Assembly (NCBI RefSeq): GCF_013314975.1
Contig: NZ_JABTYH010000015.1
Location: 1-64,000 of the forward strand
From: Pseudarthrobacter oxydans
GTDB lineage: Bacteria; Actinomycetota; Actinomycetes; Actinomycetales; Micrococcaceae
Direction of reading: 5' to 3'
Length of the DNA stretch: 64,000 bases
This document shows, piece after piece, positions 46,626-58,797 of this stretch (positions are counted from its first letter, which is position 1; each line of letters opens with the position of its first letter). The notes under the pieces are model-generated. The model did no database searches. It saw only the letters and a list, made by a program, of their open reading frames with translations, and had not been told where the DNA came from. Position numbers and translations under genes: made by a program.

Positions 46626-46952
46626 ATGAGCAACGCAAAAGACGTAACAGACGCAAGCTTCAGCACGGACGTATTGTCCTCCGACAAGCCGGTAATCGTT
46701 GATTTCTGGGCTGAATGGTGCGGCCCCTGCCGCAAGCTCGGTCCCATCCTGGATGAGATCTCGGTCGAGTACAGCGAAAAGGTGGATGTCGTGAAGGTGA
46801 ACGTGGACGATAACCCCGCCATCGCCGCAGAATACGGCATTACGTCGATCCCGGCCGTGTACCTCTTCCAGGGTGGAGAAGTGAAGAACACGGTCATCGG
46901 TGCCAAGCCGAAGCAGTTCTTCGAAAAAGAGTTTGCGGACGTCCTGTCCTGA
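46626..46952 (+). CDS. trxA: Thioredoxin
   Basis: A 108-residue thioredoxin with the active site WAEWCGPCRKLGPILDEI and the cis-proline region YGITSIPAVYLFQGGEV. It reduces disulfides in cytosolic proteins using electrons from TrxB, encoded immediately upstream. The length is normal. A strong intrinsic terminator follows at 46984-47019 and marks the end of coding sequence before a 4.2-kb gene-free region. Confidence 0.97.
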   Translation: MSNAKDVTDASFSTDVLSSDKPVIVDFWAEWCGPCRKLGPILDEISVEYSEKVDVVKVNVDDNPAIAAEYGITSIPAVYLFQGGEVKNTVIGAKPKQFFEKEFADVLS

Positions 46953-46983
46953 GCGTGCACCGGCTCGGATGAGTCGAGCTTGG

Positions 46984-47019
46984 AAAAGTGGCCACTGCAT
47001 ATGCGGTGGCCACTTTTTT
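46984..47019 (+). terminator. Intrinsic terminator after trxA
   Basis: GTGGCCAC (46988-46995) pairs with its complement at 47006-47013. The stem is extended by four A-T pairs, has a ten-base loop and is followed by six T residues. It is a classical Rho-independent terminator of the trxB-trxA operon, and read the other way (A-tract before the stem) it could also limit minus-strand transcription. Confidence 0.9.
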
Positions 47020-47118
47020 GTGTACGCGCGGCCTGGAAATCAATTTCTGCTCGTACTGTCCGTTTATCGTTGAGCAAAGATACCCACCTGTAGACCGGGC
47101 GGCTGGAGTAGTAGGCTC

Positions 47119-47132
47119 GTTTCACGTGAAAC
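47119..47132. promoter_or_regulatory. parS: parS site 1
   Basis: Perfect GTTTCACGTGAAAC palindrome, the ParB-binding centromere site. It lies about 100 bases after the trxA terminator and is the first of the array. Confidence 0.95.
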
Positions 47133-47538
47133 GCTTGCCTGCCCGGAGTTGCCTCCGTACCGCCAAAAGGCATGGGAGTCGAAAATACCTGGCCGAGGGC
47201 GTCCAATAGGGGCTCCAAAGTGCCACTATCTAGCTAGCCGGGACCGAAGACGTGCATCAGAAGCTATTTCAGCCAGGCGGCGTCTGCACGCTATCGTTTG
47301 CGTGCTCCAATCAATGAACAAGGACGCTCCACCGACCGTTTCAGCAATCTTAATGCTCCTAGATCTGAGGCAGAGTGCCAAACTAGCGCCAGGGGGAAGC
47401 GCCGCGGCGGGTGGAACTCTCAGAACGCGTGTCCCTACAGGGCACGTTGGAGGACGGTTCGAACATTCTGATGCAGACGCCTCAGGGGTTGACGGTGTAC
47501 CGGGCGGGGGGGTGCAGTGCCGGCATAGTGACCGAACC

Positions 47539-47552
47539 GTTTCACGTGAAAC
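47539..47552. promoter_or_regulatory. parS: parS site 2
   Basis: Perfect 14-base parS palindrome. Site 3 is only 61 bases further on; this is the closest pair in the array. Confidence 0.95.
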
Positions 47553-47599
47553 ACACGAGGATCACTGAGTTTTACGCGTACACGCTCCCACGTGGGGCG

Positions 47600-47613
47600 G
47601 TTTCACGTGAAAC
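47600..47613. promoter_or_regulatory. parS: parS site 3
   Basis: Perfect 14-base parS palindrome. A different palindrome around CACGTG (CCCACGTGGG) lies nearby at 47587-47596 and is not a parS site. Confidence 0.95.
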
Positions 47614-48331
47614 ATGGAGCGACGTTTCCCCCGGCATCAGCAGCCCCTAAGTTTTCCGCTCCAAAGGCTACCTTCACCCAAATTTCGTACTGAGTGGACT
47701 TTTCGCTGCAGGTCTCGCCCCTGAGCCGCCGTCGATAATGGCGCCCTGGCACAACATCCGTCCGGCCGCGCTCAGGTCTCCACGATACGGCCCGGCGCAG
47801 TCTGGGCCGGCCCAGCGTAGAAAACAAAATTCCCGACTTGTCGCAATCAAGCTCGGGTCCAGCAACAGCCTCACGCGGAGCGCCCTAGAAGGCGGCGGTC
47901 ATTCAGGACACTCGCACCAGTGGCGGAAACCAAGCAGGCCAACTGTAGCAATGTCTTGATTTCCCACTACGAACACACTCCCGGTGTAGGTGCAGCAGTG
48001 AGCACGGACCAGGATTCATCTAGTCATTGAATCCAAGCCCCGCCGATCGTTGTGCCCGAGGGATATCGTGCCCACCCCGATTTTCCGGGCTGTCCTGCTT
48101 CGGAAGGTCGGTGCACCCGAAGACCTATGAGAACGGCATACCTGCGTTCGCAGGCAACGCAAACTATCCAAGCGGCCAATCGTCAGAACATACTGATCAC
48201 ACGTTTGCGGAAGCGGGCGGTGACGCCTATGAGCCGACGACCAGGCTTGATGGCACCCTAATCTTGACCACGAGCCCTCCGTCGACAACACAATCCAAAG
48301 CTGGTCGCAAATGATGAGTACCCGGGACGCC

Positions 48332-48345
48332 GTTTCACGTGAAAC
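48332..48345. promoter_or_regulatory. parS: parS site 4
   Basis: Perfect 14-base parS palindrome, 732 bases after site 3 and about 70 bases before the DnaA-box-like ATATCCACA at 48411. Confidence 0.95.
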
Positions 48346-48410
48346 ATGCGCGGTTGCGTGGGCCATGCGGTTGTTAGGGCCTTATGTTGTACCGAAAACA
48401 AGAGGTGGAG

Positions 48411-48937
48411 ATATCCACACTGTTGTCCAGACAATAAAGCGGCCAATCGCGCATTGAACTGGGGGATACCCTAGCACTCGAGACATAGCGTGGACTGTAG
48501 CGCGGTACTCACGCACGCTTATGCCCACAGACCCTTCCTGCCGGTTCCTCTGCACCCAGTCCAGCTTTGAACACAGAGCATCAGGTACGGAATTGGTGGA
48601 GCTGACTCGTTCGCCTTCCACCGACAACGGCCCCCTGAACGAACTCATTGGCGGCAGACCTATGGCAGAACGATTGATATCCTCTAGCTACTTGCTCCAC
48701 GGCGGAAAGTACAAGAGCTGATCCATGGTTCGGCTGATGTCCGACGTCGTGATACGAGCTGACCGCTTCATGGATCAACAGGGCGGGGCTGTGGCTACAT
48801 AGTCCAAGGACCCAGAATGCTCAGAGCAAAGGGGAAGAAATAGGTATCCAGGAGAGGTCGTAAGGGCGTAGATCGGTGCTGGATATCCACAATCTTTTCC
48901 ACAGCCAGAGACCTCAATATTCACAGTGATATCCACA
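48411..48937 (+). promoter_or_regulatory. DnaA-box-like cluster A inside the parS field
   Basis: ATATCCACA occurs at 48411-48419, 48883-48891 and 48929-48937; TTTTCCACA at 48895-48903; ATATTCACA at 48917-48925. Each differs by one or two bases from the DnaA box TTATCCACA, and all point the same way. The last four start 12, 22 and 12 bases apart, close to one or two helical turns, as in DnaA-binding arrays. Confidence 0.55.
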
Positions 48938-49144
48938 GGCCTGGTTGCGCCACGTCAGCTCTGTCTCGGGTTGGCTGCTCGCGACCCACTCTCGATGCTG
49001 CGCATAACCTCATGCCTTAGCGTCCGACCACCTCGGTGATGGCTCATTGAAACGTCTCCAAAGGCCCGCCCGATCTGCACGAAAGTGCACTACTTAAGCT
49101 GATTTCCACTCAGTGTGATGTGCGGCTCCTTGCGGCGCCATCGT

Positions 49145-49158
49145 GTTTCACGTGAAAC
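49145..49158. promoter_or_regulatory. parS: parS site 5
   Basis: Perfect parS. It is the only copy that also matches the extended 16-base consensus TGTTTCACGTGAAACA (49144-49159), and it is followed about 110 bases later by the second DnaA-box-like cluster. Confidence 0.96.
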
Positions 49159-49265
49159 ACAGGGGCGCGCCGGCCTGCCGTACCTCAACAGGTGCCCAAA
49201 GGAAGAACGTACCGACTCCTCGGATCGTCGTTCTGCGTGCGCGAGGAGCCGGTCCTCCCGTCCGA

Positions 49266-49298
49266 TCATCCACAAAGTTATCCACAGCGTTTTCCACG
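49266..49298 (+). promoter_or_regulatory. DnaA-box-like cluster B (three boxes, 12-bp phase)
   Basis: TCATCCACA (49266-49274), the perfect DnaA box TTATCCACA (49278-49286) and TTTTCCACG (49290-49298) follow each other at exactly 12-base intervals in the same orientation. This is far from the oriC around dnaA (about 8 kb), so it may be a DnaA-titration or secondary binding locus. Confidence 0.6.
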
Positions 49299-49946
49299 GC
49301 CCATCGCTGCCCGGCCTGAGCCGCCTCACTCATAGCTCGTCACGCCCATTCGACCACGAGTGTCGACATTTGGCCCTACCCGACAGCACGTACAAACATT
49401 GACCGTCAAGGGGCGGCGCACGACGCCGATATGGAGGCAATCATTTTGCGACCAGGGCCATGAGCCGCAGACCACGGGGGAGTACGTCGACGGTATGCGC
49501 GTGAACCAAGCGCTTACCATCGACTGCCAGACTCCACGTGGGTCGTGGCGTTATACCTGCCGATGGACAGGCTTTAGACAATTCTCCCTAATCAGTTCGT
49601 TCGGCATATGTGCACCTCCGACGCTCTGATCGCCGGCACACGCCACATCCGCGGACATGAGATCGTGGAGATTAGCGGTGAGGGTCGTTCAGGTTCGGGT
49701 AACATTCAAGGCTGATCATCGACATGGAGGTCGTAAGATATATGACCTGTCGTTCTGCGGGTGAAGATGCCGGCGCGCTCATGCCCAGGGGAAAACGTCG
49801 GCCCATGTCTGTGTCATTATGACTGCTCAGTCGCAGCTGGACGTCTCTGGCGGTCGGCGGTCGTATTTTTGGTCCCAGTCGCAGGAGCCGGCCCGGAATA
49901 CGCCGCATTTTCAGTCCTTCGGCCCCAGCACTAGGTGGCGCTCACT

Positions 49947-49960
49947 GTTTCACGTGAAAC
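49947..49960. promoter_or_regulatory. parS: parS site 6
   Basis: Perfect 14-base parS palindrome, 802 bases after site 5, in sequence with no coding character. Confidence 0.95.
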
Positions 49961-50442
49961 GCATGGAACGGGATTCAAAGGCCCATGCTCGCATTTGATT
50001 GTTCTTCTGCATGCAACGGCCCGTGTTGGCAGGCCGTTGTGGTTCTGGGTATCGGCTTGTACGGGCCTTTCATGCAGAGGGGTAGCTGGCTCTGCGGCCC
50101 TACATCAGGACAACAGGGACCTTCTCTGGGGCCCTGGAGCCGAGGGAGACGGATCAGCCCTCGATCACGCGCTTATCTACAACATTGACGTCCGGACGGG
50201 CCGCCTGCAGCTCCTGCCAGTGCTGACGGAGCTGCTCCCAAGCCCCTCAAGTCCGAGGCATTACACAAAGTGCCTGAATGATGTGAAGGGCTCCTTCTCT
50301 CCTAGGTCAGACTTGGCACCGGTGATGCCAAATGCGGCGGTAGCGGAAATGACGACGAACACGGACATGCAAAGAAGAGCGTGCAGAAATTGAGAGCACC
50401 GAACTGATCAGCAGGCCGCTGAGCTGCAGCGCTGACATACCT

Positions 50443-50456
50443 GTTTCACGTGAAAC
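50443..50456. promoter_or_regulatory. parS: parS site 7
   Basis: Perfect 14-base parS palindrome, 496 bases after site 6. Confidence 0.95.
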
Positions 50457-50738
50457 GTAAAGGACATACGGCCTTCCTTGAATCTCGTATAGGTGTGGGG
50501 TTCGAGTACCTCTCATTGCCCAGGCTCAGAGCCCTGTTTCTAAGGGTTTCTTGGGGCGCAATTCGGGCCGCATCGGCTGCTGAACCTACTAGATGGAAAT
50601 TTAGACTGCGTCGCTCTACTTCCAGTGGGACTTACATCGAGGATAAGGAGGCGACATCAGGGAATAGCCACATATCCTCTTTGTGAATAGACTCAACGAA
50701 GTACGGCCGACTTGAACAGTACCAATCCTCGGGGCTGC

Positions 50739-50752
50739 GTTTCACGTGAAAC
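50739..50752. promoter_or_regulatory. parS: parS site 8
   Basis: Perfect 14-base parS palindrome, the last in the gene-free stretch, 400 bases before the 3' end of parB. Confidence 0.95.
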
Positions 50753-51151
50753 GTTACTGTCCTGTGCGTGGAACTTCAGCTTGAGAAGAGGACCTCCATG
50801 GGTGGGCGTTCCGAGGATTGGTTCCCCTAACCTGAACTGGCCGTTCAGTCTAAATCGGCGAACCAATCACGCCACCTCTCTGAAACCCTAGAATGGTACC
50901 CCAGCCGCGAGTCTCTCAGCCGTAGAACCTAGTGGCGGGACGGAGGCACAACCAAATCCTCGCAAGGCCGTGACACCGTATCAGCAGCTCTGTACAACTT
51001 CCCGTGCCCCTCGACCGATCCACAAGACTCGATGATGGGTCATAAGTTTGGGATGTGACGATCTTCCACCCTTATCGGCTCTCACGGGGAGGGCCCCGGA
51101 TACACGTAGGGCCCGATTCGGAGTGAACCCGGCCCTACTGAAATCGTCCTG

Positions 51152-52474
51152 CTAGCCGGACTGGCCCGGAGCCAGGACTTCCATAATGCGATTGAGGTCT
51201 TCGACGCTCGCAAATTCAATGCTTACTTTGCCCTTACGGACGCCAAGGGAGATCTTGACATTCGTATCAAGCCGGTCGGAAAGCGACGACGCCAAGTAGT
51301 CGAGCCGCTCATGTCGGGCCCCTGGACGGGGGATGTTGTTCTTCGCAGGCTTTGCCGGATCCTGGTACAGCGTCACGGCTTCTTCGGTGGCACGAACCGA
51401 CATACCCTCCGCAACAATCTTCTGGGCCAGTCGCTCCATCGCCGCGGCGTCAGGAAGAGCCAGGAGGGCGCGGGCGTGGCCAGCTGAAAGGACGCCGGCT
51501 GCCACCCGGCGCTGCACCAGCGGGGGCAGCTTGAGGAGACGCAGGGTGTTCGAGACCTGGGGGCGGGATCTTCCGATGCGGTCAGCCAGTTGCTCATGGG
51601 TAGTTCCAAAGTCCTCCAGGAGCTGCTGGTAGGCGGCAGCTTCTTCCAGGGGGTTTAGCTGGCTGCGGTGCAGGTTTTCGAGCAGTGCATCCCGAAGCAG
51701 ATCGTCATCAGTGGTGTCACGGACGATAGCGGGGATAGTTTCGAGGCCAGCGGCCTGTACTGCCCTCCACCGGCGTTCACCCATAACAAGCTCAAACGGT
51801 TCGCTACCATTTTCGGTTGATTTCCGAACCACAATTGGCTGGAGGACGCCGATTTCGCGTACCGAGTGGACGAGCTCCGCCATGTCGTCTTCATCGAAGA
51901 CAGAGCGGGGCTGTTTGCGGTTGGGGTGGATGTCGCCGACCGGAATCTCGGCAAACCGAACTCCCGGTACCTCGACCAGGCCCACGCCGTCATCATCCCA
52001 CCCAGGGGTTTCCGATCGACCGCCAAGTACAGCCGCGGAGGCCGCGGCTTCAGGCACACCGGTCGTGGGCTCATAGCCGGTGTCAGCGGCATCGTCTGTT
52101 GTGACGGCCGAGGTGGCCACGGCCTCCGTTTTTGCCTTCGCTGAAGTGCTGGGCCCGGCTGCCGGGGTTCCAGCAGCTGTTCCCTTACCTGCAGCGGACT
52201 TCCCTGCAGCGGACTTCGCCGGCGTGGATTTAGCCGGGGAGGATGTGGATGAAGAGGACCGGGAGGACTTAGCCGCCGCAGGCTTGTCCGCTGCGGGCTT
52301 CGACGACGGGGCCTCAACCGCCTCCTCTGAAGGTTCCGTCTTCTTGCGTCCCTCAGGGAAGAAGAGATCTACCGGACGCGAGACGGTTGTGGCGGTACCC
52401 GACCCGTTGGCGGCGGCGGAACTTGGAATCAGCGCACCCAGACCGCGGCCCAGGCCGCGTCGTTTCTCGCTCAT
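51152..52474 (-). CDS. parB: Chromosome partitioning protein ParB
   Basis: A 440-residue CTP-dependent DNA clamp that loads at parS. The N-terminal ParA-stimulating motif is [13 protein letters not shown] (residues 5-17). A long Ala/Lys/Ser/Pro-rich linker follows (about 40-150), longer than in model ParB proteins. The conserved core includes [35 protein letters not shown] and [21 protein letters not shown]. The parS-reading helix-turn-helix is [21 protein letters not shown]. It lies 63 bases downstream of parA in one operon and faces a field of eight parS sites. Confidence 0.97.
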
Positions 52475-52537: not shown

Positions 52538-53605
52538 TTAGCGCTCTGCTATTTCAGCAGCGGCTTCCAGGTAAGACAGGGCTCCACTGGAGGAAGGGTC
52601 GTAGGTCATGACCGTCTGCTGGTAGCTCGGTGCTTCCGAGATGCGCACCGATCGTGGAACCACAGCAGAGAGGACCTGATCCGGGAAGTGCTGGCGTACC
52701 TCGGCCGCAACCTGGGCTGCGAGGTTGGTACGGCCGTCGTACATGGTCAAAAGGATCGTCGACACCACCAGGTCAGCATTCAGGTGCTTCTGGATCATCT
52801 CGATGTTCTTGAGCAGCTGGCTCAGTCCCTCGAGTGCGTAGTACTCGCACTGGATCGGGATGAGTACTTCGTTGGCTGCGCAGAAAGCGTTGACGGTCAG
52901 CAGCCCAAGGCTCGGCGGGCAATCAATGAAGATGTAGTCGAGCCGCTGCTCGCCGTTCTTTTCACGGGTCTTGGCATAGACGTCAATGGCGCGGCGGAGC
53001 CGCTGTTCACGTGCCACGAGGGAGACCAGCTCAATCTCCGCGCCTGCCAGGTGGATAGTTGCGGGCGCGCAAATCAGGTTCCCGATGTCAGGGCACGGTG
53101 CCACCACGTCCGCGAGGGGTACGTCGTTGATCAGGACGTCGTAGATGCTGTCCACGTCCGCGTGATGTTCGATTCCCAGGGCGGTGGAAGCGTTGCCTTG
53201 AGGGTCAATGTCGATGACCAGGACATTGAGTCCAGCCGCCGCCAGTGCCGCGGCAATGTTCACCGTGGTGGTGGTCTTTCCCACCCCACCCTTTTGGTTG
53301 GAAACCGTAAAGACGCGTGTGTTCTCGGGCCGCGGCAGCTGGCGGCCTACCAGGCGTTCACGGCGCTTGGTTTCATGCGCCAGCTCTCGGGCAATGGGGC
53401 TGGAATCATCGATTGCATCAATAACGTTGGATCTACCGCCAGTAGTTGTTTCACGTGAAACGGCTGCTGATTTCGCGGCGTTCGAAACCCGTTCCGGGTG
53501 GATTCCGCCCCTGCCCGGCGTCGCGACAGGACCAGCGACAGAACGTGCTGACCCCAAAGACACAAACGGGGGGATCCGTTGTGTGGAGGCTTCACTACTG
53601 GTCAC
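52538..53605 (-). CDS. parA: Chromosome partitioning ATPase ParA (Soj) with long N-terminal extension
   Basis: A 355-residue Walker ATPase that moves ParB-bound origins. Deviant Walker A is SNQKGGVGKTTTTVNIA (about 102-118), Walker A' VLVIDIDPQGNAST, and Walker B YIFIDCPPSLGLLTVNAF. About 95 residues precede the ATPase core; minimal ParA proteins start almost at Walker A. The extension looks disordered and its codons 49-53 (VSRET) are formed by a perfect parS site at 53448-53461. It is coupled to parB downstream. Confidence 0.96.
   Translation of the reverse strand: MTSSEASTQRIPPFVSLGSARSVAGPVATPGRGGIHPERVSNAAKSAAVSRETTTGGRSNVIDAIDDSSPIARELAHETKRRERLVGRQLPRPENTRVFTVSNQKGGVGKTTTTVNIAAALAAAGLNVLVIDIDPQGNASTALGIEHHADVDSIYDVLINDVPLADVVAPCPDIGNLICAPATIHLAGAEIELVSLVAREQRLRRAIDVYAKTREKNGEQRLDYIFIDCPPSLGLLTVNAFCAANEVLIPIQCEYYALEGLSQLLKNIEMIQKHLNADLVVSTILLTMYDGRTNLAAQVAAEVRQHFPDQVLSAVVPRSVRISEAPSYQQTVMTYDPSSSGALSYLEAAAEIAER
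53448..53461. promoter_or_regulatory. parS: parS site 9, inside the parA coding sequence
   Basis: Perfect parS within the N-terminal extension of parA, read as Val-Ser-Arg-Glu-Thr. ParB bound here could repress or otherwise tune its own operon, since the site lies about 150 bases inside the first gene. Confidence 0.93.
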
Positions 53606-57372: not shown

Positions 57373-58797
57373 ATGACAGTAGACGAAGCCAACCACGCCA
57401 ATACTGTCGGAAGTTCCTGGCGGCGCGTTGTCAGCCTGCTGGAGCAGGACCACCGTGTTTCACCACGTCAGCGGGGCTTTGTCATCCTCGCCCAGGCCCA
57501 GGGCCTGATCGGTTCCACCCTCCTGGTGGCCGTCCCCAACGAGCTCACCCGCGAAGTGCTCCAGACCCAGGTCAAGGACGCACTGGATGATGCGCTGCAC
57601 AACGTTTTCTCCGAGGACATCCGGTGCGCCATCGACGTCGATACCGATTTGGTGCCCATCCACACGGAACCTGAACCCGTCGTCGTCGAGCCGTCCTTCT
57701 CTGCGGACCAGCTGATCGAGCAGAAGCCGCAGCCGATGCTGCCCAGCACGTCGCACGAGTTTGGCCGGCTGAACCCGAAATACGTCTTCGATACCTTCGT
57801 CATTGGTTCGTCCAACCGCTTTGCCCATGCTGCCGCCGTCGCAGTGGCTGAAGCACCGGCCAAGGCGTACAACCCGCTGTTCATCTACGGTGACTCGGGT
57901 CTGGGAAAGACCCACCTGCTGCACGCGATCGGACACTACGCCCGCCGGCTCTACAGCGGCATCCGCGTTCGCTACGTGAATTCGGAAGAGTTCACCAACG
58001 ACTTCATCAACTCCATCCGCGACGATGAAGGTGCAAGCTTCAAGACCACCTACCGCAACGTCGACGTGCTGCTCATCGACGACATCCAGTTCCTCGCAGG
58101 CAAGGACCGTACGCTCGAGGAGTTCTTCCACACGTTCAACTCGCTGCACAACAACAACAAGCAGGTAGTGATCACCTCGGACCAGCCGCCCAAGCTGCTG
58201 GCAGGTTTCGAGGACCGCATGAAGTCACGCTTCGAATGGGGCCTCCTCACCGACATCCAGCCGCCGGAACTTGAAACCCGGATTGCGATCCTCCGCAAGA
58301 AGGCGCTCAGCGAAGGCCTGTCCGCGCCGGATGACGCGCTTGAATACATCGCATCAAAAATCTCCAGCAATATCCGTGAGCTCGAAGGCGCACTGATCCG
58401 CGTCACCGCGTTCGCCAGCCTCAACCGCCAGCCCGTTGACGTGGCCCTTGCCGAGATGGTCCTCAAGGACCTCATCACCGACGACGGCGCCCAAGAGATC
58501 ACGTCCAGCCAGATCCTGCAGCAGACCGCCGAGTACTTCAAGCTGAGCATGGAAGAGCTGTGCAGCAAATCGCGCACCCGGACCCTGGTGACTGCACGCC
58601 AGATCGCCATGTACCTCTGCCGCGAACTGACGGACATGTCGCTGCCGAAGATTGGCCAGGAGCTTGGCGGCCGCGACCACACCACCGTGATCCACGCCGA
58701 CAGGAAGATCCGCGAGCTCATGGCAGAGCGCCGTGTGATCTACAACCAGGTGACAGAGCTGACCAACCGGATCAAGCAGCAGCAGCGGGACTCGTAA
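57373..58797 (+). CDS. dnaA: Chromosomal replication initiator DnaA
   Basis: A 474-residue initiator. Domain I/II ([20 protein letters not shown]...) is followed by the AAA+ domain, with Walker [18 protein letters not shown], Walker [13 protein letters not shown], sensor [10 protein letters not shown] and box VIII-type [12 protein letters not shown]. The DNA-binding domain IV has [15 protein letters not shown]. It melts oriC and loads the helicase. GAGGGA precedes ATG 57373; TTG 57370 is a weaker alternative. Flanking DnaA boxes lie in both intergenic regions. Confidence 0.98.

Follow-up and report, generated by a model that had tools for sequence, protein, structure and literature searches.

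The trxA-parB interval and its parS sites

The stretch analysed here comprises 64,000 nucleotides of Pseudarthrobacter oxydans (NCBI RefSeq assembly GCF_013314975.1, contig NZ_JABTYH010000015.1, positions 1 to 64,000; hereafter the window) and contains, between trxA and parB, a 4.2-kb interval (46953-51151) that carries eight perfect parS sites together with a predicted array of DnaA boxes. The two bordering genes converge on this interval: trxA (thioredoxin; 46626..46952, forward strand; Pfam Thioredoxin, E 1.3e-29) is transcribed towards it from the left and parB (51152..52474, reverse strand; Pfam ParB_N, HTH_ParB and ParB_C) lies on its right, beside parA (52538..53605, reverse strand; Pfam AAA_31, E 6e-56, residues 97-279). 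DnaA in the window was confirmed by Pfam alongside thioredoxin, ParB and ParA. The left side is closed by a strong trxA terminator hairpin at 46984..47017 (forward strand) with adjoining 17-bp arms, whose minimum free energy of -29.8 kcal/mol (z -7.7) was reached by none of 200 shuffles. The right border carries a weaker hairpin at the 3' end of parB (51088..51139, reverse strand; 82.7% identity over 52 bp in the locus L001), with a fold z of -2.1 and 7 of 200 shuffles folding as well.

No coding signal was found in the interval. The longest open reading frame (ORF) lying wholly within it encodes 152 residues, no ORF of at least 100 residues displays a third-position GC peak, Rfam yielded no match within 46953-51151 at E values up to 1 and no tRNA was found in the 64-kb window. 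Hidden genes were rejected on these grounds, with further evidence against them coming from ten close pairs of loci, in which 406 of the 765 insertions and deletions (indels) were of 1 nt. A promoter scan, which covered only the sigma-70 consensus, identified none. The GC content of the interval is 57.2%, compared to 61.6% for the surrounding 21-kb locus. The original prediction, made from the letters of the window alone, of a gene desert poorer in GC than its surroundings and closed on the left by a strong trxA terminator is therefore upheld.

The eight desert sites are perfect copies of the 14-mer GTTTCACGTGAAAC and are located, without strand assignment, at 47119..47132, 47539..47552, 47600..47613, 48332..48345, 49145..49158 (the central parS, between the DnaA-box clusters A and B described below), 49947..49960, 50443..50456 and 50739..50752. 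Every one of these coordinates had been predicted exactly; however, the earlier list lacked a ninth perfect site at 53448..53461 (again unstranded), which falls within the 5' portion of the parA ORF, before the stretch encoding the ATPase domain, and reads VSRET there. When up to three mismatches were allowed, ten matches were obtained in the 64 kb, nine of them perfect, versus a mean of 1.95 and a largest value of 6 in 100 shuffles. The whole assembly (4,689,826 bases) contains nine perfect parS in total, all in this locus, and at least one perfect parS per genome was present in 119 of the 120 family genomes searched. The central site is located approximately 8 kb from dnaA and parAB adjoins the desert, so that several perfect parS lie near parAB and oriC, as in a ParABS centromere. 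Across 66 loci, the 14-mer tends to be preceded by T (0.65-0.75) and followed by A (0.54-0.71), which would extend it to a 16-bp site.

Comparative loci and length of the desert

A total of 80 named ParB loci were taken for comparison, of which 8 without both trxA and parB were dropped, leaving 72. Same-genus stretches were obtained from 80 of 206 genomes, namely 60 among the best DNA matches, a biased sample, and 20 lower-ranked ones added to offset this bias; approximately 50 genomes of the genus lie mostly outside the sample. Of the first 60, two were removed, L115 because of a contig end and L155 because no trxA was found in it, while 9 were identical to named loci; 4 of the 20 lower-ranked stretches were likewise identical to named loci, leaving 16 fresh genomes. 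In a FastTree tree calculated from TrxB, ParA and the end of ParB, the window is placed beside Pseudarthrobacter polychromogenes (98% identity).

Within the genus, the interval measured at least 3.7 kb in all 78 assemblies with a full interval and at least 4.0 kb in 76 of them, the shortest of the first same-genus set being L152 (4011 bp, including 99 N). Among the 72 named loci, it ranged from 57 bp (Psychromicrobium) to 9.2 kb, with 0-11 perfect parS, and the deserts proper are mostly 4-9 kb, dedicated and non-coding. Short intervals in relatives had been named in advance as evidence against a maintained desert, and these were indeed found outside the genus (57 and 93 bp in Psychromicrobium, 109-111 bp in three Rothia, 328 bp in Kocuria and 114 bp in Micrococcus) but not within it, indicating that the desert is a trait of the lineage rather than a family-wide rule. 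In Cellulomonas loci of more than 2 kb the interval reads as genes, without parS; in L058 these encode an aminotransferase and a protein resembling D-Ala-D-Ala ligase. The Arthrobacter gandavensis locus L021 retains, beside trxA, a gene for N-acetylmuramoyl-L-alanine amidase that adjoins a parS desert.

Two lengthened deserts were noted: L019 contains a sub-cut-off match to a DDE transposase (L019:19577-20200) and L147 a 2.6-kb stretch that is absent from L160. The excluded same-genus stretch L155 carries four parS and no DnaA boxes and may have been rearranged.

Conservation of parS and drift of the spacers

Ten close pairs of deserts, hand-picked and with spacers differing by 4-40%, were used to compare the fate of the sites with that of the intervening DNA. 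In these, 69 of 81 parS were intact in the partner, against a neutral expectation of approximately 8 of 81 calculated by hand from (1-d)^14; the 81 comparisons are not independent, because the pairs share members. The parS sites are under purifying selection in these pairs, and the original claim that the sites rather than the bases between them are selected holds. In the pair L001-L113, parS and the listed DnaA boxes persist despite spacers that are 30% diverged.

Between species, the spacer is close to unalignable. Matches of the window identified by blastn were confined to approximately 30 bp at cluster B (in nine other named intervals), short pieces at both ends and scattered pieces of 22-43 bp, some of them with parS. 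The median alignment coverage among 34 deserts was zero, and the mean coverage over 80 deserts dropped from 1.0 to 0.07 as 4-fold divergence went from below 0.05 to 0.25-0.30. Indels are common, as their number in the ten pairs attests. Hypermutable DNA was considered and is not needed to account for this drift: spacer divergence (uncorrected) was 1.3-2.7 times that of the 4-fold sites of trxA, trxB, parA and parB, and indel/substitution ratios of 0.04-0.10 call for no special mutation mechanism.

The positions of the sites are retained for longer than the letters around them. In 46 pairs with unalignable spacers, 98 of 274 non-central parS lay within 60 bp of a counterpart position, compared to 37.7 expected, and 19 of the 46 pairs were individually below 0.05 in this test. 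The layout of parS therefore drifts slowly and the spacer letters fast. The uneven spacing had been taken as a sign that the intervals are free of selection; uneven it is, but these matches indicate that it is partly inherited.

A predicted DnaA-box module around the central parS

The intervening DNA had also been described as otherwise random, which does not stand, as an array of DnaA boxes occupies 48883-49298. Predicted cluster A (48883..48937, forward strand) is composed of ATATCCACA at 48883, TTTTCCACA at 48895, with a pitch of 12 bp, and a second ATATCCACA at 48929. Predicted cluster B (49266..49298, forward strand) is composed of TCATCCACA at 49266, TTATCCACA at 49278 and TTTTCCACG at 49290, also with a 12-bp pitch. 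Two further single DnaA-box-like sites were noted in the desert outside these clusters, at 48411-48419 and 50173-50181.

Motif-free k-mer enrichment was carried out on 36 deserts (179 kb) hand-chosen from Micrococcaceae loci of more than 1.5 kb, some Rothia and gene-bearing intervals being left out. Almost all of the enriched words corresponded to parS or DnaA boxes; among the 45 top 8-mers just one, ACTACTTA (7 occurrences), fits neither. The same deserts contain 146 near-consensus DnaA boxes, versus a mean of 22 in ten simulations; 139 of them share one strand and 7 lie on the opposite strand.

The geometry was assessed in 83 deserts of more than 2 kb with at least three parS. Boxes with a 12-bp pitch were found in 72 of these and two head-to-tail clusters 150-500 bp apart in 71, the latter set leaving out L007 and the 11 deserts in which no pair has a 12-bp pitch. 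In 63 of these 71 loci, clusters A and B enclose a perfect parS, compared to 28.3 loci expected by circular shift. This parS is preceded by cluster A at 206 bp (interquartile range (IQR) 202-217, range 192-251) and followed by cluster B at 96 bp (IQR 92-107, range 73-119). The coefficients of variation of these distances are 0.07-0.10, versus 0.32-0.41 for the distances to neighbouring parS, and the central parS is positioned at 0.52 of the desert length (IQR 0.49-0.56).

In the first same-genus set (51 loci keyed apart), the A-B pair was present in 49 and a perfect central parS in 45. The 16 fresh, lower-ranked genomes, which had no part in the discovery of the pattern, all displayed the A-B pair, with a perfect central parS in 10 and median spacings of 215 bp from A to parS (187-239) and 97 bp from parS to B (95-119). 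The spacing is thus repeated in fresh genomes and the central parS is less universal in the less similar ones.

A search of the whole genome for box pairs using one 12-bp-pitch pattern (at most one mismatch) yielded matches only in the desert (3), in dnaA-dnaN (1) and upstream of dnaA (1, with one mismatch). The window's desert contains 7 near-consensus boxes, compared to 3 for dnaA-dnaN and 5 for the 600 bp upstream of dnaA. A strict-form probe for the module, with a gap range that was too short and that misses this genome, matched at least 13 of 295 genomes in 2 of 32 genera; a second strict-form probe, also a poor one, matched at least 6 of 197 genomes in 1 of 32 genera.

An AT element phased with the central parS

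The region of an AT element phased at approximately 10.5 bp, identified by pooling 66 loci, corresponds in the window to 49040..49119 (forward strand), between cluster A and the central parS. None of 2000 jitter controls gave a pooled signal as strong. Peaks of AT-rich dinucleotides occur at approximately -94, -82, -71, -60, -50, -39 and -29 before the central parS, with a period near 10.5 bp. After eleven close relatives were dropped, the phasing power in the 55 nonredundant loci was 0.496 and exceeded all 2000 jittered controls (maximum 0.264); at 360 other parS it was 0.0003, confining the phasing to the central site. The signal also exceeded all 1000 controls both in 17 named loci (0.488; control maximum 0.469) and in the other 48 (0.458; control maximum 0.333). 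Locus by locus, the null fraction was below 0.1 in 47 of 66 loci, and also in 3 of the 8 loci without a central parS. The phased segment is probably bendable.

Together, the sites, their strand bias, spacing, phasing, conservation and clade constitute a demonstrated architecture, from which DnaA binding, ParB binding, a bend and the direction of control at the module are what we infer.

Interpretation of the desert and its module

The role of the desert as a putative landing field for ParB is well supported. The original prediction had it maintained only for ParB, and this restriction has to be given up in view of the conserved DnaA-box module near its centre. The best reading, which we favour if only just, is that of a chromosomal centromere with an embedded datA-like, predicted DnaA site that would link DnaA and ParB. 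As in the ParABS family, ParB clamps would load at several parS and slide along the several kilobases of gene-free DNA, and a stretch without genes that is closed by hairpins would spare the spreading ParB from head-on transcription. DnaA would assemble on clusters A and B, as their sites suggest, and a bend at the phased AT segment could bring the two DnaA complexes together, as IHF does at datA. With parS in the resulting loop, ParB loading and DnaA assembly might influence each other, although this is speculative; centromere-bound DnaA could license movement by ParABS or, in the other direction, ParB could switch a site that stores or inactivates DnaA.

A number of observations weigh against this reading. 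The AT phasing of the window, taken alone, is not significant (null fraction 0.17). The same-genus loci L136 and L151 are without a 12-bp-pitch pair, and L155 is without DnaA boxes as well as without trxA in its stretch. A perfect central parS is lacking in 8 of the 71 loci, three of which keep a copy with one or two mismatches in place and five none, and is missing in 6 of the 16 fresh, less similar genomes. In the Paenarthrobacter-clade loci L009, L013 and L015, parS sits 67-91 bp after the last B box, and in three genomes of another genus (g7) it sits approximately 80 bp before A, which suggests a core formed by the A-B pair, with parS as a movable partner. In L007, cluster A and the central parS are split apart by an ORF with an integrase core (rve; L007:13434-14432). 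Seven of the 36 deserts are without any DnaA box, and the module is absent from the long parS deserts of Glutamicibacter and the A. gandavensis group. The module would therefore be favoured but not indispensable, and since the loci are related, the shuffles overstate their independence. The L007 insertion can also be viewed as a natural insertion mutant of the module.

A more specific version of this centromere reading, which can be put forward only tentatively from the arrangement of the sites, is that the module represents a new cis element, a DnaA switch embedded in the centromere in which DnaA oligomers on two clusters would be looped by phased bent DNA around parS. ParB loading would then open or lock the DnaA complex within approximately 420 bp, so that the state of the partition complex would directly set DnaA activity, or the reverse.

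Somewhat unlikely, in our judgement, is a plain parS cluster, a landing field for ParB and SMC, with the DnaA-box pair an independent titration or control site sharing the free space. The long module-free parS deserts of Glutamicibacter and the A. gandavensis group are in keeping with such independence, as are the A-B pairs without parS between them in the Paenarthrobacter clade, Sinomonas L016, the three g7 genomes and 6 of the 16 fresh genomes. However, mere sharing of space does not lead one to expect that a perfect parS would separate A from B, at near-fixed distances, in 63 of 71 loci rather than 28.3, nor AT phasing in register with the central parS alone.

It is improbable that the desert is a relic, that is, decaying formerly coding DNA kept by chance after gene loss between parB and trxA, where parS would have been easiest to keep. 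The genes found in the interval in outgroups (Cellulomonas L058, A. gandavensis L021) and the Psychromicrobium interval of just 57-93 bp could be accommodated by such a history. A length of at least 3.7 kb in 78 of 78 same-genus intervals could not readily be, since unalignable spacers and common indels (765 in ten pairs) indicate that there was time enough for neutral shrinkage.

That the module is a second or the true replication origin is highly improbable. Origin-like parts are present, in that two DnaA-box arrays occur next to AT-rich DNA that is phased, and the desert contains more near-consensus boxes than dnaA-dnaN or the region upstream of dnaA (7 versus 3 and 5). However, non-coding GC skew, measured in 65 deserts (those of more than 7 kb being left out), is negative on both sides, at -0.045 and -0.041 (standard error 0.003; 60 and 58 of the 65 loci), without a flip; replication forks therefore seem to cross the module one way. 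In addition, trxA and parB converge on the module, and dnaA-dnaN contains at least one box in every measurable Micrococcaceae locus. A main origin at this position was rejected on the basis of the skew and the convergent genes. Least probable of all is an architectural hub in which phased AT and boxes would organise a nucleoid-protein or SMC loading site, with DnaA structural rather than regulatory: the mid-desert position (0.52) and the helical phasing in register with one parS would suit it, but one-direction boxes at a 12-bp pitch suggest a DnaA oligomer site.

Comparison with known systems

The locus resembles chromosomal ParABS centromeres in its canonical 14-bp parS, adjacent parAB and cluster near oriC, and differs from them by its dedicated non-coding desert with a central DnaA-box module. 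According to the part of the source used here, the essential DnaA boxes of Escherichia coli datA share one direction, DnaA molecules on boxes that lie apart are presumably brought together across a loop made by IHF, and the spacing is optimised (PMC5742627). Within that description, the module is alike in having one-direction boxes (139 versus 7 by strand), held apart with near-fixed spacing in non-coding DNA, and differs in having a phased AT segment in the place of IHF, usually a parS in the loop, and a location inside a centromere. The phased AT segment, together with the near-fixed A/B spacing, may be the counterpart of a datA-type bend site.

Work by Mera et al. in 2014 reportedly concerned the Caulobacter crescentus parS and its binding of DnaA. 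In the section of a further paper drawn on here, DnaA is reported to bind parS in C. crescentus and to start partitioning at levels too low for replication (PMC6399470). DnaA boxes at a centromere near the origin are common to both systems, those of the window being predicted; C. crescentus is, however, an Alphaproteobacterium, and that section describes no fixed A-parS-B geometry, phased AT or multi-kilobase desert. The same section presents rctA/parS2 of Vibrio cholerae chromosome II as an initiator-binding site and a parS in one locus near the origin, which is alike, with RctB rather than DnaA as the initiator, which is not (PMC6399470). In Bacillus subtilis the Par system (Soj-DnaA) also regulates DnaA but, as far as the excerpt used here goes, control is exerted by way of ParA and persists after parS has been relocated away from oriC (PMC7614844). 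Clamps of CTP-ParB spread over kilobases, and the relevant portion of one report proposes head-on transcription as a possible impediment (PMC8494293).

Of the links between replication initiation and origin segregation in bacteria, a well-known one, Soj-DnaA, runs via proteins. In the desert, by contrast, predicted DnaA sites and parS are joined in a small cis element whose geometry is near-fixed amid freely drifting DNA, and because the spacer is unconstrained, the module can be mutated without touching any gene, making the link directly testable. The desert also provides a clear natural case of non-coding DNA that appears to be kept not for its sequence but either for its length or as a track along which ParB clamps slide. 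In the open-access literature, neither a description of a parS desert in the Arthrobacter group nor one of a like DnaA-box/parS module was found; most subscription papers lay outside this scope, so that this is no proof of novelty. Elsewhere in the window, positions 57886-57987 matched AsdA, which is an antisense RNA of dnaA, at a score below the Rfam gathering threshold (33.5 bits; threshold 52).

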